From IMG/VR virus record IMGVR_UViG_3300047472_000237, positions 18,788-82,787 of that record: a DNA stretch of 64,000 nucleotides, one strand, 5' to 3'. Positions 6,675 through 33,728 of this stretch are shown here, in pieces. Below the pieces are notes generated by a model. It saw only the letters and a list, made by a program, of their open reading frames with translations, was not told the DNA's origin and searched no databases. The stretch is from a virus. Every line of letters begins with the position of its first letter. Positions within the stretch are counted from its first letter, which is position 1. A program made the translations under genes and the position numbers.

Positions 6675-6696
6675 TGTTGGGAGGCCGTCGCGAGTG

Positions 6697-6702
6697 TATA
6701 AT
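6697..6702 (+). promoter_or_regulatory. TATAAT -10 box inside an inverted repeat
   Basis: A consensus TATAAT ends five bases before the ATG at 6708. It lies in the loop of an 8-bp perfect inverted repeat (GGGAGGCC at 6679-6686, GGCCTCCC at 6710-6717). There is no good -35 hexamer at 17 bp. Transcripts starting here would be leaderless and would lack the 5' arm, while read-through transcripts could fold. Confidence 0.55.
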
Positions 6703-6707
6703 TCGTG

Positions 6708-7142
6708 ATGGCCTCCCTTCACGCATTCTCGGCTACGATGGACACTCGCGTGAAGGCGATTGGGAAGAACGTCAACGGCACAAAGCGTGCCGTCGCGAAG
6801 GCGGTCATCAGAGAGTGTATCGTCTCCACGCCCGTCGACAAGGGTGTCGCCCGTTCCAACTGGCAGGCACTTCTCGGAGACTACTCGGCCGACAAGGTTC
6901 CCGCGTTCGCACCAGGAAACCACCTGGGCCTGGCGGAAACCGCGAACGCTGACGCTGCCATCCAGGCGGCCAACTCGGCCATCGACCGAGCCGCGCCGGG
7001 GGAAGACATCGTAGTCCTGAACAACGTCGACTACATCGAGACGCTGAACAACGGATCGTCTACCCAGATGGCTGCGAACTTTGTCCAGAAGGGGATCGGG
7101 GCCGGCATTGCCGCCGTCAACAGCATGAAGGTGGTGCCGTAA
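6708..7142 (+). CDS. HK97 gp10-like tail/neck protein
   Basis: The 144-residue product has an N-terminal helix, then 'ECIVSTPVDKGVARSNWQ', the hallmark of the HK97-gp10 / neck-type-1 family found in head-tail joining modules, and a C-terminal 'VLNNVDYIETLNNGSS' segment that is also typical. In many phages this gene is beside the connector genes; here it sits between the tail chaperones and the tape measure. ATG at 6708 is preferred over the GTG one codon earlier because it falls five bases after a TATAAT box. The next gene starts immediately after its stop. Confidence 0.65.
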   Translation: MASLHAFSATMDTRVKAIGKNVNGTKRAVAKAVIRECIVSTPVDKGVARSNWQALLGDYSADKVPAFAPGNHLGLAETANADAAIQAANSAIDRAAPGEDIVVLNNVDYIETLNNGSSTQMAANFVQKGIGAGIAAVNSMKVVP

Positions 7143-11653: not shown

Positions 11654-14600
11654 ATGTTTGAATTCCTGTTCATGGTGGTGCTGACAGCGATCTTGACGGT
11701 CGTGGCGGAGCTCATTCGCCCCAAGCCGAAGATCGAAAACGCTCGCCCCGCGCACCTCGGCGACTTCTCCTTCCCGACCGCCACCGAAGGCCGCGTCGTC
11801 CCGCTCGTCTGGGGCACCGTCCGCATCGACGGGCCGAACGTGGTGTGGTACGGCAACCTCGAGAACGAGCCGATCAAGAAGAAGGTCAAGACGGGAATGT
11901 TCTCGTCCAAGAAGGTTGTCACCGGCTATCAGTACTCTGTCGGCATGCAGTTCGCCCTGTGCCGTGGCGACGTTGACTTCCTCTCCAAGATTTGGATCGG
12001 TGAGGTCTCCGCCTGGGAGGGCGTGCTCGGCGAGTCGTTCGTCGAGATCGAAGATGAGAACTTCTTCGGCGGCAAGCTCGACAACGGCGGCATCGATGGC
12101 AAGTTCTCCTTCTACCTCGGATCGCGCGAGCAGCTGCCGTCCGCCTACCTGGGCCAGACGCCGCCGGACTATCTCTGGTTCGACGACTTCTCGGCCAACG
12201 GTGGCGACCCGCTGAACGAGTACAAGGGCAGTGACGCCGGCGCTCACTACTTCGTCGCCAACAAGGGACAGGTCGGTGCTCCGACCGGCGGCGACACCAA
12301 TGACGACAGCGACGTCATGCGTGTGCTCGAACACACGGTGGCGGAAGACGCTCTGCCCTCTCCGAGCAACGAGGCGAAGGTTCGCAGCACGTACGGCGGC
12401 ACGGCCCCCGGCGACCTGAACCGCTACATGGCGCTCCTCCTGCACCCTGAGCGGCCCCGCCTCGGCGACAACGTCAAGGCCGTGATGACCTTCATCCCGA
12501 AGGCCGCCGGCGCGTTCGACTTCGCCGCCCACGGCCTCTGGCTCACGGTCAAGTGCGAAGACCAAGGCTCCCACAACAGCAACTATCACGTCGCTGTGAA
12601 CGTGGACGACAGCACGGTCAACCTGCACCTGTTCGCCCCTGGCATGGCGAACTCCGTCATCCTCGACACGGCCACCGCTGTCGGCGGCGACTTCACCATC
12701 ATGACGGGCAAGCACTCCATCGAACTTCGCGTCGAAGGTGACCGCGCTCGCGTGTTCCTCGACGGCATCAACATCATCGATGAGACCGACAGTCGCATCC
12801 TGGACATCCCGGAGAACTACTGCGGCGTGTGCGTCGGCATCGAAGGCAACCTGAACGTCGAGTTCTTCTCGTCCAACGACTGGTCAGCGGCGGGCATCTA
12901 CTCGCTCGCCGTGGACAGCACCACTCGCAAGCTGGAGTCGTCCGTCCCCGCGTACCGTGGCACGTGCTACGGTGTGTGGGAGGGCGGTTACATCGGGAAC
13001 AGCAGCCAGATCCAGCCCTGGGCATTCGAGCTTCGACGCTGCCCGAACCCGCTGGCCCTGACCAGCAATCGACACATCGTCAACGGATTCGACTGCAACC
13101 CGATGAACATGCTGTACGAGATCCTGCTTGATCCGGATTGGGGCCTTGCCCAGCTGAGCTCGGACATCGACGTCGACAACTTCCGCGAAGCGGCCTACAC
13201 CCTGTTCGACGAGGGCAACGGCATCTCGATGAACATCGACGACGCCCTGGAGTGCTCGGAGCTCATCCGCGAGATCGAACGTCAGGTCGACGGTATCTTG
13301 TTCGTCAACCGCACCACCGGCAAGTGGCAGATCACGCTGGCTCGCGGCGGCTACGAACTCGAAGACCTCACGTCCATCAATGAGACGAACACGGTCGAGG
13401 TCAAGGAGTTCACCCGTGGTGCGTGGGAAGAAACCACGAACAACATCAACGTGGAGTTCGCCAACCGCACCAACGAGTACAAGGTCACGTATGCGACGGC
13501 CCAGGACTCGGCGAACATCCGGATCCAGGCGAACACGATGGTGTCCGTCACCGCCAAGTACCCTGGCGTCAAGAGCCGCGCCCTCGCGAACCAACTCGCG
13601 TGGCGTGACCTGCGGACGCTCGCGTACCCCATCGCCAAGTGCACTGTCCTCGTCGACCGCACCTTCCACAGCCGCAACCCCGGCGACCTGGTCCGCGTCA
13701 CGATCACGAGCAAGGACATCGTGGATCTGCCGATGCGGATCACCCGCATGGACCTCGGCCGGCTCGACGACGGCGTCATCGAGCTCAACCTGATCCAGGA
13801 CACGTTCGGCTACGACCTCCCGTCGTTCGCCGACCCCGACAACACGCAGTGGCTGCTCCCCGGCGACACGGCCCCGCAGAACATCGAGACGGCCGACCGC
13901 GTCGTGTTCGAGGCCCCGCTCAAGTTCCTGCCGTTCGCAGACGAGAACCCTGGCGTGCCCGACCGCGTCTGGATCGGCGCTCGCTCGGCTGGCGGCGGTG
14001 GGGCCGGCTTCGCCCTGGCGGGCCGCCAAGGCTCCGACCCGTACGCCGAGTGCGGTGAGGTGGCCGGCTACCTCGTCCGTGGCAAGCTCAAGAACGCCGT
14101 CTCCGGCGGCACCACGCAGGGCACCGACACGCTGGTCATCGAGACCGACGGCGGCGACACCCTGCTCGCCATCAGCAAGCAACTCGAGTCGCACACTTCC
14201 AAGGAAGTCGGCACGAGCCTGTTCAACCTTCTGCTCATCGACAACGAGTTCGTGGCCCACACCGGCTACACGCTCGGCTCCGGCATCATCACGCTGACTG
14301 GCGTCTACCGTGGCATGCTGGATACCGTCCCGGCCGCCCACGCGGTCGGTGCCAAGGTCTGGTTCTTGTCGACGTCGGGCAACCTGACCGACCTGGCATG
14401 GACGCCCGGCGCGACGGTGCAGATCCGCCCGCTGCCACAGAACCTCAAGGGCGAGCTCGACGTGTCGCTCGCCACGCCGTCCAACGTGCTGATGAACAAC
14501 CGCGTTCGCCGGCCGTACCCGCCGACGAACTTCAAGCTCGACGGTGTGCCGTATCCGGAGACGATGAACCTCGACTCGCTGCCGGCCGAAGACATCCAAG

Positions 14601-26369: not shown

Positions 26370-27230
26370 ATGGCCTCCCAGAACTATCCCCGCGTCACGA
26401 TTGAAGACTTTGGCAAGCACCTGCTCGACGCGGGCGATCTGGATCCCATCTATCTCGGCCTCCACCGGCTGGCCCTCCCCGCGAATCAGCTTCATCGCTG
26501 GCTCCTGGCATACTGTTGCTTCTACAGCGCCGGCGTCGCTTCGTACCTCTCTGAGTTCGAGGGTGCGACCTTCTGGGAACACTTCCTCACCGCTGCCAAG
26601 AACGAGACCCCGGCCCCGCATGGCGGACGTTGGGAGCGTGGCAAGGAACGTCGCCACTTCCGTGGCGGACAGGCCATCAAGGCCACCAACGAGCTCATCG
26701 GCAAGTACCCCGTCCCCGAACTCGCCTTCAACGGGCACCTGGTCCGCCCCGGCGAGACCCGCCTACCCTTCAGCGTGGTCAGCGACCGCGCTCAGGAGTG
26801 GCGAGGCTTCGGCACCTGGATCTCCTTCAAGGTCGGCGACCTGCTCGACCGTGTCGGCATTATCCCCGTCGACTTCGCGTTTGACGAGGCGATGTACGAA
26901 GATCCGACCAAGGCCGCGATCATGCAGTGGAAGCTGCGGCGCGACCTGCCCCAGGACTCGACCATCGACGACCCGAAGGCCGCCGTGCAGGAGATCGTCG
27001 CGTACCTCATCGAGCACTTCAAGGACTATCTGGCCCCGCCGCTGCTCGACCGCCCCATCGGCCTCCAGGAGGTCGAGACGATCCTCTGCAAGTGGAAGTC
27101 GCACATCAACGGGCACTACCCGTTCTTCAACGACACGGTCGAGATCCACCACGGTGTCTCTCCCTGGGCCAACCACAGCGACACGGCCAAGCGGTTCCTC
27201 GCTGCCATGCCTCAGCCGCCGGCCAAGTAA
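26370..27230 (+). CDS. Amino acid:DNA transferase (aGPT-Pplase clade 2 / ADDT family)
   Basis: The 286-residue protein matches the helix-rich family first named alpha-glutamyl/putrescinyl thymine pyrophosphorylase clade 2, later shown to attach amino acids to phosphorylated 5-hydroxymethyluracil in DNA. Characteristic stretches are 'QLHRWLLAYCCFYSAGVASYLSE', 'GGRWERGKERRHFRG', 'WRGFGTWISFKVGDLLDRV', 'PVDFAFDEAMYEDPTKAAI' and 'GHYPFFNDT'. It is the entry enzyme for thymidine hypermodification and heads a cluster with flavoenzyme, acetyltransferase and kinase. ATG is preceded by GAAAGAA and follows the structured RNA by 13 bases. Confidence 0.8.
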   Translation: MASQNYPRVTIEDFGKHLLDAGDLDPIYLGLHRLALPANQLHRWLLAYCCFYSAGVASYLSEFEGATFWEHFLTAAKNETPAPHGGRWERGKERRHFRGGQAIKATNELIGKYPVPELAFNGHLVRPGETRLPFSVVSDRAQEWRGFGTWISFKVGDLLDRVGIIPVDFAFDEAMYEDPTKAAIMQWKLRRDLPQDSTIDDPKAAVQEIVAYLIEHFKDYLAPPLLDRPIGLQEVETILCKWKSHINGHYPFFNDTVEIHHGVSPWANHSDTAKRFLAAMPQPPAK

Positions 27231-27235
27231 TCCGT

Positions 27236-27264
27236 TTGCCTTCTGTCGCCTTTCAGTGTATCTT
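27236..27264 (+). promoter_or_regulatory. Promoter TTGCCT-N17-TATCTT, leaderless
   Basis: The -10 box ends five bases before the ATG at 27270, so the transcript should begin at or next to the start codon. No ribosome-binding site is present. Confidence 0.75.
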
Positions 27265-27269
27265 CGATC

Positions 27270-28103
27270 ATGAGCACAACAGTCAACATCATCGGGGCCG
27301 GGATCGCTGGCTCCATCACTTCAACCCTCCTCCGCACGGCAGGGTTCAACACGCGGGTCATCGACGACGCTGACAAGTTCTCCGCCAGCGCGGCGAGCTC
27401 CAACCTGTTCATCGTCGATTGGTACGACACCGACCTGAAGCAGATCGCTGACGGCTTCGACGTGCTCGAGATGCTCTACAAGGACGTGACGGAGTTCCCG
27501 TTCAAGGCCGGCATCAAGATCGCACCCCGCATGCTGCACATCGGGCAGCGTCACCTGCTGGTCAAGCCGGACGTGATCGGCACTGTGACCTACGCCGACG
27601 AGCAGGGAGTCGCCCTGGGCGACATGCAGCACTTCGATGGCCCAGTGATCCTGGCGGCCGGCTACCGCGCCAACACGCTCATCCGCGACCACGCTCAGCA
27701 CCACGACATCGAGGTCTACGCGGGCCACCGCTACCTGTTCAAGGGAGACCTGGCCGAGGGCCGCCTCGACATGGTCGCACCGTACAAGCACGGCAAGCTG
27801 TACCAGTACGCACCGGGGCAGATCTACTACGCCGACAGCGTGAAGCTCCAGCTGAAGTCCTACAACAAGCGACAGGCCGAGATCCAGGAGCGGACGCTCG
27901 CTCGTGCCCAGGCGGCACTAGGTCGTACAGACCTCGAGATCATCGACTTCCGAGTGGGGTATCGCCCTGTCATCGCTGAGAAACCGCTTGGCGTACTCGA
28001 CCGCATCAGCAAGAATGTGTGGAGTATGAACGGCGGCGGCAAGAACGGCACTGTCGCCTATGCCGGCCTCGCCCGGCAGCTTCTCGAGGAGCTCAGGGCC
28101 TGA
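27270..28103 (+). CDS. FAD-dependent oxidoreductase, probable thymidine-modification lyase
   Basis: The 277-residue protein begins with a dinucleotide-binding motif 'NIIGAGIAGS' (G9, G11, G14) and has later flavoprotein segments 'VILAAGYRANTLI' and 'YAGHRYLFKGD', with a C-terminal 'MNGGGKNGTVAYAGLARQL' typical of DadA/GlyOx-like oxidases. It is compact for that fold. Flavin-dependent lyases acting on glycyl-thymidine in phage DNA are known from thymidine hypermodification pathways, and its neighbours are the other enzymes of that pathway. I infer that it trims the amino acid to leave 5-aminomethyl-dU. Confidence 0.72.
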   Translation: MSTTVNIIGAGIAGSITSTLLRTAGFNTRVIDDADKFSASAASSNLFIVDWYDTDLKQIADGFDVLEMLYKDVTEFPFKAGIKIAPRMLHIGQRHLLVKPDVIGTVTYADEQGVALGDMQHFDGPVILAAGYRANTLIRDHAQHHDIEVYAGHRYLFKGDLAEGRLDMVAPYKHGKLYQYAPGQIYYADSVKLQLKSYNKRQAEIQERTLARAQAALGRTDLEIIDFRVGYRPVIAEKPLGVLDRISKNVWSMNGGGKNGTVAYAGLARQLLEELRA

Positions 28104-28390
28104 TGAGCAAGAAGGCCGGCAAACCTCTCCTGCCATTCTTCAAGTCGCTTCGCAAGCGCAAGAAGAAAGGGAAGAAGCGGACCATCGTAACTGACTGGGA
28201 CTTGCCGCCGATCGTGGAGAAGACGAAGACCCTTGCCGATTGCTACGAAGAGGACTACAGTGACCGCAATGCAAATCCGCCCCGCCACCCCCGACGACCA
28301 CAAACGCCTCTGCGAGATCGCCCGCTCACACCGCGCGGGGAACGGCTTCTCGAACATTCAAATGTTCAGCGGCCCGACCCACTACGCTAA
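28103..28390 (+). CDS. Small basic protein overlapping the acetyltransferase gene
   Basis: A 95-codon frame starts at the ATG overlapping the flavoenzyme stop (TGATGA). The first ~55 residues look genuine: a very basic stretch ('KSLRKRKKKGKKRTIV') and 'DWDLPPIVEKTKTLADCYEEDYSD'. The remainder is Arg/Pro-rich and overlaps the acetyltransferase frame from 28269, so it may be a non-conserved tail. A small basic DNA-binding accessory of the modification enzymes is possible. Confidence 0.45.
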   Translation: MSKKAGKPLLPFFKSLRKRKKKGKKRTIVTDWDLPPIVEKTKTLADCYEEDYSDRNANPPRHPRRPQTPLRDRPLTPRGERLLEHSNVQRPDPLR

Positions 28391-28718
28391 CGGCTGGCTG
28401 CGTGTGATGGTCGACGCCGAAGGCAAGATCGTCGCCTTCACCTGCATTCGTCAGAAGAAGACGACGAAGCAGACGAAGCTCTACTACATCATCGTGGACA
28501 CGGCGTACCGCTCCGGCGGCATCGTCGACAACAAGCCGGTCGTCGGCATCGGCCAGGCGCTCCTGGATGACCTGATCACCAACTCCCCGTATCGCGAGCT
28601 CATCTGCGACTGCCTGAAGGACAATGAGCCGGCTCTGAAGTTCTACAAGAAGAACGGCTTCGAGATCGTGGGTGAGTCCCTCAAGGGCAAGGGACACATC
28701 CTCCTGAAGAAGTGGTGA
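28269..28718 (+). CDS. GNAT-family N-acetyltransferase
   Basis: The 149-residue protein has the GNAT fold signatures: N-terminal 'MQIRPATPDDHKRL', acetyl-CoA loop 'VVGIGQALLDDLI' near 101-113, and 'DNEPALKFYKKNGFEIVGES' near the C-terminus. It lies between the flavin lyase and kinase genes. Acetyltransferases in thymidine hypermodification clusters acetylate the amino group left by the lyase; that is the likely role. The ATG at 28269 fits the family N-terminus better than an upstream TTG. Its last codons form one arm of a 12-bp inverted repeat. Confidence 0.8.
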   Translation: MQIRPATPDDHKRLCEIARSHRAGNGFSNIQMFSGPTHYANGWLRVMVDAEGKIVAFTCIRQKKTTKQTKLYYIIVDTAYRSGGIVDNKPVVGIGQALLDDLITNSPYRELICDCLKDNEPALKFYKKNGFEIVGESLKGKGHILLKKW

Positions 28719-28821
28719 GCACGGAGTGAACTTGTCGGGCCAAACCTCGTGCACGGCCTGCTTGCCTTAAATGCTGCCGCCCGGTCGAGGTCGGGAGAGG
28801 CGAATCCAGGTGCTCACCACT
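28711..28821 (+). other. Structured RNA element between acetyltransferase and kinase genes
   Basis: A perfect 12-bp inverted repeat (AGTGGTGAGCAC at 28711-28722, its complement at 28810-28821) encloses 87 bases. Inside, CCTCG/CGAGG and CCCG/CGGG helices are possible, so the whole may fold as a closed multibranch structure. The 5' arm contains the acetyltransferase stop codon, and the 3' arm ends just before a TTGAGGG ribosome-binding site for the ATG at 28834. It could couple or gate translation. Confidence 0.55.
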
Positions 28822-28833
28822 CTTGAGGGAACT

Positions 28834-29211
28834 ATGGACACCATCATCGTCGCTCATCATGTCGCACACTTCAGCTGTGCACTACTTACTCTCTTGTGCA
28901 TCGCCTACGTCGCGAAGCCGAAGGACCGTTCCCAATGCGTAACCCGACCATCGTCAATATCCGTGGCACGAGCGGCTCTGGCAAGAGCACTCTGGTCAAG
29001 GCGATATTCGCCCGCTGCACCAATGTCGAGCCAGTGCGGGCACCTTCCACCGCGAAGCGCAAGCAGCCGCTCGGCTACACGATGCAATACAACTCGCTCG
29101 GCGCGGAGAACAACCCGCAGAAGCTGTTCATCGCCGGCCACTACGAATCAGCCTGCGGCGGCTGCGACACGTTGGGGAAGTACCTTCCCGATGTCGTCAC
29201 TCCTCGTCTGA
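28834..29211 (+). CDS. Possible small membrane protein overlapping kinase gene
   Basis: An ATG with a good GAGGGA site opens a frame beginning 'MDTIIVAHHVAHFSCALLTLLCIAYVAKPKDRS', which predicts one membrane helix. After about 45 residues the frame runs through the kinase gene and becomes low-complexity (Ser/Arg/Thr). It may be a real small protein with a long overlap or a leader read to deliver ribosomes to the kinase start at 28935. Confidence 0.3.
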   Translation: MDTIIVAHHVAHFSCALLTLLCIAYVAKPKDRSQCVTRPSSISVARAALARALWSRRYSPAAPMSSQCGHLPPRSASSRSATRCNTTRSARRTTRRSCSSPATTNQPAAAATRWGSTFPMSSLLV

Positions 29212-29588
29212 TCGGCGACGACACCGAGCCGAACAGCTACCACTTGACCTTCGGCCTGGTGCGTGAGTACTGGCGGCGCGGCTACAACGTCGTGTTCGAG
29301 GGCCTGCTCATCAGCGGCGACGTGCGGCACACCAAGGCCCTCCACGACGACGCCCTCCCCATCAACGTGGTCGGCTTCGACCTGCCCGTGGACTTCTGCA
29401 TCGCGTCCGTCCTCGAGCGGCGGAAGGCCGCTGGCAACGTCAAGGAGTTCAACGAGGCCAACACGCGGGACAAGCACCGCCTCCTCGTGAACTGCCTCTC
29501 GAAGCTCGACGTGGCGGGCGTGCCCGTACAACGCTGCGGCACTCGAGAGCTCGCCTCGGACGCGGTCTACGCCCTCCTGGGCATGTAA
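28935..29588 (+). CDS. P-loop kinase, probable 5-hmdU DNA kinase domain
   Basis: The 217-residue protein has Walker A 'GTSGSGKST' (11-19) at the N-terminus, then 'FIAGHYESACGGCDTL', 'YNVVFEGLLIS' and 'VLERRKAAGN', an arrangement seen in phage nucleoside- or DNA-phosphorylating P-loop kinases. In thymidine hypermodification, a kinase phosphorylates 5-hydroxymethyluracil in DNA so that the transferase can add an amino acid. The helical domain often associated with that kinase is in the following gene. A deoxynucleoside monophosphate kinase role is the main alternative. Confidence 0.72.
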   Translation: MRNPTIVNIRGTSGSGKSTLVKAIFARCTNVEPVRAPSTAKRKQPLGYTMQYNSLGAENNPQKLFIAGHYESACGGCDTLGKYLPDVVTPRLIGDDTEPNSYHLTFGLVREYWRRGYNVVFEGLLISGDVRHTKALHDDALPINVVGFDLPVDFCIASVLERRKAAGNVKEFNEANTRDKHRLLVNCLSKLDVAGVPVQRCGTRELASDAVYALLGM

Positions 29589-29604
29589 CGTGCGACGCCG
29601 CTCC

Positions 29605-29633
29605 AGGCCGCTCCGACCCGCTCGGAGCGGCCT
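29605..29633 (+). terminator. Intrinsic terminator after kinase gene
   Basis: A perfect 12-bp stem (AGGCCGCTCCGA and complement) with a 5-nt loop is followed by CTCTTTG. It separates the kinase gene from the helical-domain gene. Confidence 0.8.
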
Positions 29634-29656
29634 CTCTTTGGCCCCGAAAGTTCAAC

Positions 29657-30565
29657 ATGATCGACGCAAACGTCAACGTCTTCTTCGCGCTCGCACGAGA
29701 GCGGTACGCCATCCAGCGCCGGCGCGAGGGGACGATCCCCAACCCGCACGCTCCCCACTTCTCGGCCAACCCGATCTTCCAGCGGTATCGGTTCTGCAAC
29801 CTGTTCCGCGAGCAGGATCGGACGACGGCCTGGTTCCGGGACACGCTGCGTGAGCCGCTCCGCAACGACGCGGCCCGCGTGCTGTTCGCCACCATCGCCT
29901 TCCGCTGGTTCAACCGCATCAGCACCGGGAAGCTCATCAGCGGCTTCCTGATGGAGGGCCACCGGACGTGGAAGCCTGAGAGCATCCGCACGATCCTGAA
30001 GGACGTGAAGCCGGTCGTCACCGGCGCGTACATCATCAAGACGCCGAACGGCATGAACAAACTCGACGGCGTGCTGTGGTGCATCGAACAGGTGCGGAAG
30101 GACATCGACCATCTTGCGGGTGCCCTGGGCCACACGCCGCCCGATGAACGCTCGCTCGAAGGCACGTGGGAGGCGCTCCGCCAGTTCCCGTATCTCGGCG
30201 ACTTCATGTCGTACGAAGTCGTCACGGACTTGCGACACACCTGCTGGCTCGACCAGGCGTCCGACCGCTACACGTGGTGCAATCCTGGCCCAGGGTGTAC
30301 GCGGGGCCTCGGGTGGGTCGTCCACGGCGACTTCGACCGCTGGAACAGGAGCTCGAAGACCGACCGCGCGGCCATGCAGCCTCACCTGGAGAAGCTGCTC
30401 GAGCTCGCCAACAGCGACAGCGAGCTCTGGCCCGACGACTTCCCGGACTGGGAGATGCGCGAGGTCGAGCACTGGCTCTGCGAAGTGTGCAAGTATGTCC
30501 GCGTTGAGAGCGGCGGCTCTCCGCCGAAGGAAATCTTCAGGAATGCGCTTGCCTCCGTGAAGTGA
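29657..30565 (+). CDS. 5-hmdU DNA kinase helical-domain protein (aGPT-Pplase clade 1 type)
   Basis: The 302-residue protein carries the pattern 'NPIFQRYRFCNLFREQDRTTAWF', followed by 'FRWFNRISTG' and later 'HTCWLDQASDRYTWCNPGPGCTRGL', the signature of a DNA-glycosylase-related helical family first called aGPT-Pplase clade 1 and since linked to 5-hmdU DNA kinases. It has no P-loop; the kinase domain is encoded by the gene before it. Together they may form the DNA kinase, with this part recognising 5-hydroxymethyluracil in DNA. No clear promoter or strong ribosome-binding site precedes its ATG. Confidence 0.68.
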   Translation: MIDANVNVFFALARERYAIQRRREGTIPNPHAPHFSANPIFQRYRFCNLFREQDRTTAWFRDTLREPLRNDAARVLFATIAFRWFNRISTGKLISGFLMEGHRTWKPESIRTILKDVKPVVTGAYIIKTPNGMNKLDGVLWCIEQVRKDIDHLAGALGHTPPDERSLEGTWEALRQFPYLGDFMSYEVVTDLRHTCWLDQASDRYTWCNPGPGCTRGLGWVVHGDFDRWNRSSKTDRAAMQPHLEKLLELANSDSELWPDDFPDWEMREVEHWLCEVCKYVRVESGGSPPKEIFRNALASVK

Positions 30566-30577
30566 ACGGGATAACTT
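30549..30577 (+). promoter_or_regulatory. Promoter TTGCCT-N17-TAACTT, leaderless
   Basis: The -35 box lies in the last codons of the preceding gene. The -10 box ends seven bases before the GTG at 30585, so the HNH message would be leaderless and start with GTG. Confidence 0.65.
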
Positions 30578-30584
30578 CGCCGCA

Positions 30585-31127
30585 GTGCGTCGATTCAAGG
30601 CAGCGAAACCTCTGGCCCGTATCACCGACGAGAGCGTCAAGGCGCGGCTGGAAGAGAATCGGCGGCTCGCTCCCTGTCCGGTTGCGGCCTACGTGCCGGA
30701 CGGCAGCCCGCTGAAGGGCGACTGCTGGGAGTGGACTGGATGTGCCCCGGATGGGTACGGCCAGATCAAGGTCGCGGGCGTCGTGCAGCGGGTGCACCGC
30801 GTCTCCTTCGCCGTGTACAAGGGCGAAGTCCCGAGGAAGATCACCGTCGATCACCTCTGCCACAACCCGAAGTGTTTCAATCCAGAGCACCTGGAACTAC
30901 AGACTGCCGCCATCAACTCTGGCTACAGTCGCATGGAGTACCGATATGATTGTTCTCAAGGCACGCAATGCCCACCAGGCCCTGCCGGAGATGATGCACC
31001 AGGTCCAGAGCAACGACAAAGCGGTGACGCGGTCGAGCCGGAACGGGCCTGTGATCCAGTTTGTGGAGCCGTTCACGATCCAGTACGCGAAGCCGACGGA
31101 GCGGGTGGTGTTCTGGCCGGAACGTGA
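30585..31127 (+). CDS. HNH endonuclease overlapping the thymidylate-synthase homologue
   Basis: The 180-codon frame starts at GTG. 'CWEWTG' near residue 47, 'GYGQIKVAG', and 'VDHLCHNPKCFNPEHLEL' (about 88-105, with Asp-His and the two Cys) identify an HNH-3 type nuclease, usually a free-standing homing or nicking endonuclease. From about residue 121 the frame overlaps the next gene by 182 bases and becomes Gly/Pro-rich, so the natural C-terminus may have been lost on insertion. Its place beside a thymidylate-synthase gene is a classic homing target site. Confidence 0.72.
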   Translation: MRRFKAAKPLARITDESVKARLEENRRLAPCPVAAYVPDGSPLKGDCWEWTGCAPDGYGQIKVAGVVQRVHRVSFAVYKGEVPRKITVDHLCHNPKCFNPEHLELQTAAINSGYSRMEYRYDCSQGTQCPPGPAGDDAPGPEQRQSGDAVEPERACDPVCGAVHDPVREADGAGGVLAGT

Positions 31128-32022
31128 CGCCAACCCGTTCTTCCACCTGTTCGAGTCGCTCTGGATGCTCGCCGGCCGCAACGACGTGGCCTATCCCGCC
31201 CGCTACTCCAGCAACATCGGTCAGTTCAGCGACGACGGCCAGACGTTCCACGGCGCGTACGGTCACCGCTGGCGTCGACACTTCCAGCTGACCGACGAGA
31301 TGACCGGCCGCTCGCAGCCCATCGACCAGCTGAGCACCATCGCCGCCGCGCTCAAGGCCAACCCGGAGGACCGCCGCCAGGTGCTGTCGATGTGGGACGC
31401 CACGGTCGACTTGGGCCGACAGGGCAAGGATCTCCCCTGCAATCTCCAGATCGTCTTCCAGCGTGACCACAACGGCCGCTTGAACATGACGGTGTACAAC
31501 CGCTCGAACGACATCCTGTGGGGTGCTCTCGGCGCGAACTGCGTCCACATGAGCTACCTCCAGGAGTACATGGCGGCGGCCATCGGCTGCGAGGTCGGAC
31601 AGTATTGGCAGATCTCCGCCAACATGCACGCCTACACGGAGCTCACCCCGCTCCTGAAGAAGTGCCTGCCGCTCGACGACCACTGTTGGCCCTCGTCCGG
31701 CTACAAGCACACTGACCCGTACGAAGGGGCCATCGAGCCGTTCCCACTGGTCAACACGCCCCTGGCCCAGTGGGAGGGCGAGCTCCGCATGTTCATCGAT
31801 GAGCCGACCGCCATCGGCTTCCGTGACCCGTTCTTCCGCCGGGTGGCGTCGCCGCTCGCAGCGGCCTACGTCAAGTTCAGTGACCGCAGCGACCCGCACC
31901 GCTTCGAGCACGCCTTCAATGCCCTGAACAGCGCGGCCAACTGCGACTGGCGGCTCGCCGCCTTCGAGTGGCTGACCCGCCGCGAAGCCGCTGCGAAGTT
32001 GAAATCAACCACGGCTCAGTGA
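30946..32022 (+). CDS. Thymidylate-synthase homologue, probable dUMP hydroxymethylase
   Basis: The 358-residue protein has the thymidylate-synthase core: 'FHGAYGHRWR', catalytic Cys165 in 'DLPCNLQIVFQ', and 'RSNDILWGALGANCVHMSYLQEYMA' (186 onward). The Asn at about 198 matches the uracil-recognising Asn of thymidylate synthase rather than the Asp of dCMP hydroxymethylase, so dUMP is the likely substrate. With hypermodification enzymes upstream, it most likely makes 5-hydroxymethyl-dUMP, although ordinary dTMP synthesis cannot be excluded. ATG follows ATGGAG. Confidence 0.8.
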   Translation: MIVLKARNAHQALPEMMHQVQSNDKAVTRSSRNGPVIQFVEPFTIQYAKPTERVVFWPERDANPFFHLFESLWMLAGRNDVAYPARYSSNIGQFSDDGQTFHGAYGHRWRRHFQLTDEMTGRSQPIDQLSTIAAALKANPEDRRQVLSMWDATVDLGRQGKDLPCNLQIVFQRDHNGRLNMTVYNRSNDILWGALGANCVHMSYLQEYMAAAIGCEVGQYWQISANMHAYTELTPLLKKCLPLDDHCWPSSGYKHTDPYEGAIEPFPLVNTPLAQWEGELRMFIDEPTAIGFRDPFFRRVASPLAAAYVKFSDRSDPHRFEHAFNALNSAANCDWRLAAFEWLTRREAAAKLKSTTAQ

Positions 32023-32029
32023 GCCTGTC

Positions 32030-32104
32030 TGACGCGATGGTCCAGATGGTAGGGCCGTGGGCTCATAACCCGCTGCATCGAAGGTTCGACTCCTTCCGCG
32101 TCAG
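32030..32104 (+). tRNA. tRNA with CAU anticodon, initiator-like anticodon stem
   Basis: A 75-base cloverleaf: acceptor TGACGCG/CGCGTCA, D-arm with AGATGGTA loop, anticodon stem GTGGG/CCCGC with CAT at 32064-32066, and T-arm GAAGG-TTCGACT-CCTTC. CCA is not encoded. Three consecutive G:C pairs next to the anticodon loop are the hallmark of initiator tRNA, but the first pair is U1:A72 rather than the C1 A72 mismatch. There is one extra base before position 8. It starts eight bases after the previous stop codon and ends three bases before the next ATG. tRNA-Ile with modified CAU is an alternative. Confidence 0.85.
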
Positions 32105-32107
32105 CTT

Positions 32108-32521
32108 ATGTCGAAAATCTACCTCATCTGCCCCGTCCGCAACGTGTCGAAGGACCAACTCGATGCGATGACGCTCTACGTCGCCAGCCTCGAACGGGAT
32201 GGCCACACGGTCCACTTCCCGAACCGGGACGTCGACCAGAGCAACGACGACGGCGGCGTTCGCATCTGCGACGAGCACCGCGCGGCGATGCATGAGTGCG
32301 ATGAGGTGCACACCTTCTGGGATCCGCTTTCGTACGGCTCCCACTTCGACCTGGGCATGGCGTTCATGCTCAGCTACGCCCGTGAGCAGATGGGCGGGGC
32401 ACCGATCCGCTTCGTGGTGGCGAACCACACCGAGCGAGTGCCCGTGAAGTCCTTCCAGAATGTTCTCGTTCGCCTGTGTGAAAGTGAAGACGACTATGAC
32501 ATCGACTACCCCAATCATTGA
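32108..32521 (+). CDS. Nucleoside 2-deoxyribosyltransferase-like protein
   Basis: The 137-residue protein opens 'KIYLICPVRNVSKDQLDAM' and contains 'VHTFWDPLSYGSHFDLGMAFM', the nucleotide-binding pattern of the nucleoside deoxyribosyltransferase / DUF4406 fold. The usual catalytic Glu of 'FELG' is Asp here. Such proteins exchange or hydrolyse deoxynucleoside bases and could remove unmodified nucleotides or recycle 5-hydroxymethyl-dU. Its ATG is three bases after the tRNA 3' end and has no ribosome-binding site, so tRNA processing would leave a leaderless message. Confidence 0.65.
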   Translation: MSKIYLICPVRNVSKDQLDAMTLYVASLERDGHTVHFPNRDVDQSNDDGGVRICDEHRAAMHECDEVHTFWDPLSYGSHFDLGMAFMLSYAREQMGGAPIRFVVANHTERVPVKSFQNVLVRLCESEDDYDIDYPNH

Positions 32522-33104
32522 TCTCGACAAGGACAGCGGCAACGAGTTCCTCGAGCGGCTCGAGGGCATTGCCCAGAAGGACGTGGCCGGCCTGAAGAAG
32601 GCTGCGGAGTCCTACGGCCCAAGCTGGAAGCAGCGGGGCGGCGTCGGCGCGTTCATGATGCTCGCCCGCAAGTGGGATCGGATGGAGCAGCGGCTCAAGA
32701 AGCTCGGCGGACGGGTGTACGACATCTTCCACGGCATCGCCACCGACGACCGGGGCGAGGGCCTGATCGATGACGTCCGCGACCTCCGCCGCTACTTGCT
32801 CCTCGTCGAGGGCGAGATGGAGGCTCGCGGCTTCCAGGGCAAGGCCCAGCGCGACAACGCCGAAGCCTCGAAGGAGCTCAAGCAGTACCCGTTCACGACC
32901 CAGCTGATCCGCGTCGCCGGCACGTTCCAGATGGTCGTCAACACGGGGCGGCCCGGCCGCAACCTCGCCCTGGGCGTGACCACAGACCAGAACCAGGAGC
33001 CGGCGTACAACTTCCGCGTCCTCTTCGAGGTTCGAGACGACATGCGGCAGGAAGCCATCGACCAGCTGCGACTGATGGCGGACCATCTCGAGAAGGGGCA
33101 CTGA
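32496..33104 (+). CDS. Hypothetical protein, possible nucleotide-modification-associated domain
   Basis: The 202-residue helical protein contains 'YGPSWKQRGGVGAFMMLARKWDRMEQRLKKLGG' (about 35-67) and 'DIFHGIATDDRGEGLIDDVRDLRRYLLLVEGEM'. The general pattern, an all-helical domain with 'YG-SW' and 'DD-RDLRRYLLL', resembles MazG-like or Nmad1-type domains found in phages with modified DNA, but I am not certain. The start overlaps the previous gene by 26 bases and has a purine-rich ribosome-binding region. Confidence 0.5.
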   Translation: MTSTTPIIDLDKDSGNEFLERLEGIAQKDVAGLKKAAESYGPSWKQRGGVGAFMMLARKWDRMEQRLKKLGGRVYDIFHGIATDDRGEGLIDDVRDLRRYLLLVEGEMEARGFQGKAQRDNAEASKELKQYPFTTQLIRVAGTFQMVVNTGRPGRNLALGVTTDQNQEPAYNFRVLFEVRDDMRQEAIDQLRLMADHLEKGH

Positions 33105-33107
33105 GCC

Positions 33108-33728
33108 ATGGCCAGCAAACCCGGCCGCAAGATGATCAATTGGGACAAGGACGACTTCAGTCGCTTCCTCAAGATGGTCGCGTTCGTCGTGTACCACTAC
33201 GACGGGGAGCACTCCGTCAGTCGCCACTTCCGCCGGTTCTGCTGGATCCTGCCACAGCTGTCTCAGCGAGTGCTCGGCCGCGTAGTCACCTACGATGACG
33301 TGGTCGAGCACTTTCGTACGACGCAAACCCGAGAGGTCTCGGAGAACGCCATCTTCCAGCGAGGGGACAAGACTCAGCGGTATCAGGAGTTCAACTCGAT
33401 GCAGCACCTGGTCGTCGGTGCCTACCACGACCTGAAGGGACTGTCGCTCGAGGACGGACCCGAGATCGACACGGTTCGAGACTTCACCAACGACCAGCTT
33501 GCCTGGGCCGTCAAGCGGTACGGCAACGGCTGCTATTGGTGCAAGGCCCCGTTCAGCGACATGGTTGGAAAGGTCGCGGATCATTACGTTCCCCACTCCA
33601 AGGGTGGCAGGACGACGAAGGAAAACTGCCGTCCGTCGTGCCCGACCTGCAACGCGTCGAAGAGCGACATGATGCCAGACGAGTTCGTAGCCAAGCGGAT
33701 GGCTCTCGCGGCGCGGTGCCGGAAATGA
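33108..33728 (+). CDS. HNH endonuclease
   Basis: The 206-residue protein has a C-terminal HNH domain: 'CYWCKAPFSDMVGKVADHYVPHSKGGRTTKENCRPSCPTCNASKSD' region, with two zinc-binding Cys pairs, the metal His in 'DHYVP' and the Asn/His of the third motif. The N-terminal ~130 residues are helical and unrecognised. It may be a free-standing homing nuclease or a nuclease used in packaging or host DNA degradation. It starts three bases after the preceding gene. Confidence 0.72.
   Translation: MASKPGRKMINWDKDDFSRFLKMVAFVVYHYDGEHSVSRHFRRFCWILPQLSQRVLGRVVTYDDVVEHFRTTQTREVSENAIFQRGDKTQRYQEFNSMQHLVVGAYHDLKGLSLEDGPEIDTVRDFTNDQLAWAVKRYGNGCYWCKAPFSDMVGKVADHYVPHSKGGRTTKENCRPSCPTCNASKSDMMPDEFVAKRMALAARCRK

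Follow-up and report, generated by a model that had tools for sequence, protein, structure and literature searches.

A tRNA-like gene abutting a start codon without a Shine-Dalgarno sequence in a phage operon: possible release of a near-leaderless mRNA by tRNA maturation

The locus and its genes

The window, by which we mean the whole analysed stretch of 64,000 nucleotides, comprises bases 18788-82787 of a virus record of 82,787 bases, and its 67 called genes are all encoded on the + strand. Its DNA polymerase and thymidylate synthase (TS) homologues have their closest counterparts, at 51-56% identity, in Mesyanzhinovviridae such as YuA, PaMx11 and Bordetella phage CN1. Upstream of the tRNA lie genes of the thymidine-hypermodification type, coding for an amino acid:DNA transferase, an FAD-dependent oxidoreductase and a 5-hmdU DNA kinase. 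The hypermodification set occupies 26370-32022, also contains a putative acetyltransferase, an AAA-like NTPase and the TS homologue, and resembles that of YuA/PaMx11-type phages. HNH endonuclease frames flank the region in focus, one before it (30585-31127) and one behind it (33108-33728); they are possibly mobile insertions. The features discussed below are collected in Table 1.

Table 1. Features of the junction in the window, and similar junctions in other viral contigs
Feature	Position	Strand	Evidence
Thymidylate synthase (TS) homologue, dUMP hydroxymethylase-like	30946..32022	+	Pfam PF00303 5e-22; phrog_5131 8.6e-134; synteny with L116/L117
tRNA-like gene, anticodon CAU (32064-32066)	32030..32104	+	ARAGORN; Rfam RF00005; fold
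CTT spacer, the entire 5' leader if the cut falls behind G73	32105..32107	+	sequence
Gene for a predicted divergent nucleoside 2-deoxyribosyltransferase / nucleotide N-glycosidase; starts with ATG, no Shine-Dalgarno sequence	32108..32521	+	homologues, family profile, model
Next gene, overlapping the 3' end of the deoxyribosyltransferase-like gene; start uncertain	32497..33104	+	ORF lists; homologue next in L116 too
Metallophosphoesterase gene after tRNA-Trp	L267		viral-contig pattern scan
HAD-type hydrolase gene behind one of two tRNA-Lys	L271		pattern scan
Terminase small subunit gene after a tRNA	L173		pattern scan
RNase H-like gene after a tRNA	L197		pattern scan

ARAGORN called a tRNA-Met(CAU) at 32030-32105, its sole tRNA in the window, and Rfam RF00005 matched positions 32031-32103 with 41.2 bits, the gathering score being 29. 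The T-stem (32080-32084/32092-32096) fixes the 3' side of the molecule, with the 3' strand of the acceptor at 32097-32103, followed by G32104. In this T-arm-based numbering, the acceptor consists of 7 bp, its 5' strand UGACGCG is fully paired, and the terminal positions read U1-A72 and G73; CCA is not encoded at the 3' end. The cloverleaf is not regular, since three bases (A32037-U-G) instead of the expected two separate the acceptor from the D-stem, A32037 being the extra base between the acceptor and the D-arm. The Rfam alignment expresses the irregularity as an absent base 66 and reads A32103 as position 73. The acceptor and T-arm, which form the part of a tRNA recognised by RNase P and RNase Z, are intact and fully paired, and the tRNA folded alone adopts a cloverleaf of -31.5 kcal/mol (z -2.1).

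The anticodon stem GUGGG-CUCAUAA-CCCGC carries the three G-C pairs (GGG/CCC) typical of initiator tRNA-fMet. The other initiator features, namely a 1:72 mismatch, a purine 11:pyrimidine 24 pair and A73, are replaced in the best reading by U1-A72, U11-G24 and G73. We therefore rejected a true initiator tRNA, as the anticodon stem alone fits. The combination of U1-A72 and G73 is a tRNA-Asn pattern, and several of the nearest tRNAs collected are tRNA-Asn. A role as supplier of tRNA-Ile2 was rejected as well, AUA accounting for 6 of 19099 codons.

The protein encoded from 32108 alone matched no family in Pfam and PHROG profile searches. An alignment of its family, comprising 30 relatives, gave a profile that hit a nucleoside 2-deoxyribosyltransferase (NDT) in the PDB at 1.5e-5, and 20 of the 30 family members match PF05014. 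Its structure was predicted with a pLDDT of 90.7, and Foldseek returned NDT, CMP N-glycosidase and DNPH1 for this model with probability 1.0. The residues invariant among the relatives are retained in it. Family profile and model thus identify the predicted protein as a divergent member of the nucleoside 2-deoxyribosyltransferases/nucleotide N-glycosidases. DNPH1 binds 5-hydroxymethyl-dUMP (according to a PDB title), a nucleotide that the neighbouring TS homologue probably makes; a functional link between the two phage proteins is plausible. In YuA- and CN1-type phages, a hypothetical protein or a 5'-deoxynucleotidase directly follows the TS homologue in place of a 32108-type gene.

The junction in the phage and in its relatives

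The tRNA fills the gap from the TGA stop of the TS gene to ATG 32108, leaving 7 nt between this stop and the tRNA and placing about 85 nt of structured RNA between stop and start. It abuts a reading frame on the same strand at a distance of 3 nt, as tRNA punctuation requires. The first-pass annotation had put the tRNA end at 32104 and the ATG three bases further on, and ARAGORN, Rfam and the T-arm bear this out if G32104 is the discriminator; under the Rfam reading (A32103), the gap is 4 nt. ATG 32108 is the only possible start, since homologues begin at the same residue and the frame cannot extend upstream beyond an in-frame TAA at 32066. Also as annotated, no Shine-Dalgarno sequence (SD) precedes this codon: by hybridisation score over the 20 nt upstream, it ranks third weakest of 67 starts.

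The two nearest relatives, IMG/VR contigs L116 and L117, have the same gene order, with the TS homologue (54% identity) followed by the homologue of the 32108 gene (53%). Behind it comes the same next gene in L116 and, apparently, also in L117, there after an HNH insertion, and then PolA (61-62%). Neither contig has a tRNA at the junction. It reads GAGGAGTGAGC-ATG in L116, that is, GAGGAG-TGA-GC-ATG, and GAGGAGTAAGCC-GTG in L117, that is, GAGGAG-TAA-GCC-GTG. In both, TS ends with two Glu codons that double as the SD GAGGAG, which overlaps the upstream stop. In the window phage, the TS gene ends in GCT-CAG-TGA; the SD is lost, the tRNA lies between stop and start, and the downstream gene is intact. 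Among 80 thymidylate synthase homologues, no locus showed a tRNA in the corresponding position, none was found at the junction of YuA, CN1 or PaMx11 either, and the viral contigs contained no exact match to the CAU tRNA. Such a distribution, that is, two relatives plus absence in more distant phages, suggests that the tRNA was inserted in the window phage rather than lost in the relatives.

The same arrangement, with an ATG 0-5 nt behind a tRNA, no SD, and a recognised domain in the gene that this ATG opens, turned up elsewhere in a pattern scan of viral contigs; examples are listed in Table 1. In L271 (7795-9600), four of seven tRNAs have an ATG-started ORF within 1-2 nt, one of these being the HAD-type hydrolase gene. 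Many tRNAs of two further contigs (L187 and L284) encode the discriminator followed by CA, not CCA, at their 3' end. In a first IMG/VR sample, ORFs behind tRNAs numbered 7 at 0-5 nt vs 1 at 6-12 nt. This signal was gone in a larger control of 1359 viral tRNAs with ORFs counted at >=100 codons, in which ATGs opened ORFs in 15/216 cases at 0-5 nt, 12/207 at 6-12 nt (p=0.69) and 32/211 at 13-19 nt; the idea that start codons are enriched where tRNAs of IMG/VR phages end was hence rejected. Overall, the tRNA-ATG junction recurs sporadically in unrelated phages, with no general sign of selection, and the phages that carry it would allow the processing idea to be tested by mapping 5' ends.

The phage has a second tRNA outside the window (L395:1500-1587; record 11848-11934; 32.5 bits), which begins 2 nt after a stop codon and is followed 17 nt behind by an ATG with an SD (AAGGA). 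Both tRNAs thus occupy very short gaps between genes of the same direction, lying 2-8 nt past a stop codon, and both are intact in acceptor and T-arm and low-scoring elsewhere; the next gene has an SD in one case and none in the other. It is tempting to suppose that phages repeatedly convert tRNAs, even ones unfit for translation, into processing signals placed over SDs, so that 3' maturation makes a near-leaderless mRNA in a phage counterpart of mitochondrial tRNA punctuation, although we rate this generalisation as rather unlikely.

A processing route and its competitors

We tentatively propose the following scenario. An ancestor would have had an SD overlapping the upstream TS stop, and a tRNA gene would later have taken over this short junction. 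The TS homologue, the tRNA and the deoxyribosyltransferase-like gene are probably co-transcribed. Host tRNA maturation would then cut the joint transcript with RNase P at the 5' end of the tRNA and, immediately behind the discriminator, with RNase Z or a comparable enzyme. Because of the position of the tRNA relative to the ATG, the 3' cut would release an mRNA starting with 5'-phosphate-CUU-AUG, near-leaderless with 3-4 nt of leader, on which 70S ribosomes may start without an SD. The loss of the SD exactly where the tRNA sits, together with the conservation of the gene, supports such a reading. The earlier proposal that the cut releases a leaderless mRNA therefore survives in part: a near-leaderless product follows from the anatomy and has the support of the relatives, but a short leader would remain.

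According to a review of leaderless translation (PMC9031893), 70S ribosomes initiate at an AUG located at the 5' end or close to it, this end must carry a phosphate, and in some species initiation becomes less efficient as the AUG lies further inward. At least in certain species, a leader of 3 nt would weaken a leaderless start. In actinobacteria, RNA-seq has revealed cleavage at the 3' ends of tRNAs (PMC3848588; PMC4681348). Removal of the tRNA is predicted to open the AUG, the mean unpaired probability over 32105-32125 rising from 0.71 to 0.88. In thermodynamic folding of a longer transcript, a competing fold outcompetes the acceptor stem at equilibrium, so co-transcriptional folding would matter. 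The maturation of the tRNA is also uncertain because of its irregularity (extra A32037; 41 bits). The route would have a cost, as cleavage by RNase P would shorten the TS mRNA to just 7 bases past its stop codon. Base pairing of the tRNA D-arm with the start of the gene, as a means of regulation, was considered separately and rejected, 33% of random targets pairing as strongly. Overall, we hold it possible, at somewhat less than even confidence, that excision of the tRNA from a joint transcript yields a near-leaderless and translated mRNA of the 32108 gene.

Another explanation, which we consider a serious possibility though a doubtful one, is that a given transcript becomes either tRNA or mRNA. 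Translation of the 32108 gene would then be weak and SD-less, relying on the uncut RNA or on reinitiation after the TS stop, and processing would be of no help or even destructive. Other SD-less starts do exist in the window phage, and the irregular tRNA may mature poorly, but the structured, SD-less stretch between the TS stop and the ATG is unfavourable for reinitiation and 30S binding. The place of the 3' cut bears on the matter as well. RNase Z-type cleavage immediately after the discriminator is the textbook route for tRNAs without an encoded CCA, such as this one, and speaks against destruction of the message. In contrast, tRNAs of Propionibacterium acnes with an encoded CCA are often cut a few nt downstream (PMC3848588), and here such a cut would hit the AUG. 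In hosts cutting a few bases past the tRNA, processing would destroy the 32108 start, so the outcome would depend on the host enzyme.

How the phage starts its genes in general bears on a further alternative, in which a promoter of its own, located within the tRNA or the end of TS, starts transcription at or near 32108. The first-pass annotation had spoken of a leaderless style of the phage, with which the starts disagree: SD-like four-mers precede 33 of 66 starts, where shuffles led us to expect 12 (p<0.0005), while a -10-like box (TANNNT) stands at leaderless spacing before 8, against 3.9 expected (p about 0.04). The phage thus mostly uses SD starts, possibly along with a minority of promoter-made leaderless genes. 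One candidate for the latter has TATAATTCGTG at 6690-6708, directly before ATG 6708, and a similar box occurs at 27270. The mild enrichment of such boxes, exemplified by TATAATTCGTG-ATG, would favour a promoter at our junction too, but 32108 is not among the starts that have one, its start-proximal window containing none. Moreover, a scan of 31500-32700, confined to sigma-70-like promoters and to terminators, detected neither. We regard a separate promoter as improbable.

Only slightly less improbable, in our opinion, is that the tRNA is a decaying pseudogene, or its extra base an assembly error, and the junction a mere insertion point before a poorly expressed or dispensable gene. The extra A32037 and the low Rfam score fit such decay, as do the scarcity of AUA codons, which leaves an Ile2 role unneeded, and the low score of the second tRNA. 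Against it stand the complete pairing of acceptor and T-arm and the retention of the invariant residues in the downstream protein.

Relation to known systems

If the cut does make the message, tRNA maturation and the translation start of a gene in a DNA-modification operon would be one event, and a single insertion would have switched this gene from SD-led translation to leaderless translation made by processing. The SD-led relatives provide a ready-made before/after comparison. Our search, confined to open-access papers, turned up no case in which excision of a tRNA renders an mRNA of a phage or bacterium leaderless.

tRNA punctuation is known in mitochondria (cited in PMC10941002), and the mitochondrial case (Ojala, Montoya and Attardi 1981) is the closest precedent. 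Here, too, a tRNA abuts an ORF in what is probably a joint transcript, from which its removal by RNase P and RNase Z would free a near-leaderless mRNA. Unlike in mitochondria, there is a single junction in a phage operon that is mostly SD-led and served by bacterial ribosomes, CUU would be left before the AUG, and the excision is putative.

The arrangement also resembles bacterial tRNA-mRNA co-transcripts, such as those of secG-leuU and the tufB operon in E. coli, in which tRNA and protein gene share one RNA and are parted by tRNA processing enzymes. The protein genes in these co-transcripts presumably carry ordinary leaders, whereas in the window phage the tRNA has replaced the SD. With leaderless mRNAs, such as lambda cI and those of actinobacteria, the predicted message would share the lack of an SD and an AUG placed at the 5' end or right beside it. 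Its predicted leader of 3-4 nt would lie within the limit of about 5 nt that defines a leaderless mRNA. Their 5' ends arise from promoters starting at the AUG, whereas the 5' end predicted here would come from processing. Overall, mitochondrial tRNA punctuation, bacterial tRNA-mRNA co-transcripts and leaderless mRNAs, the components of the proposed route, are each known.
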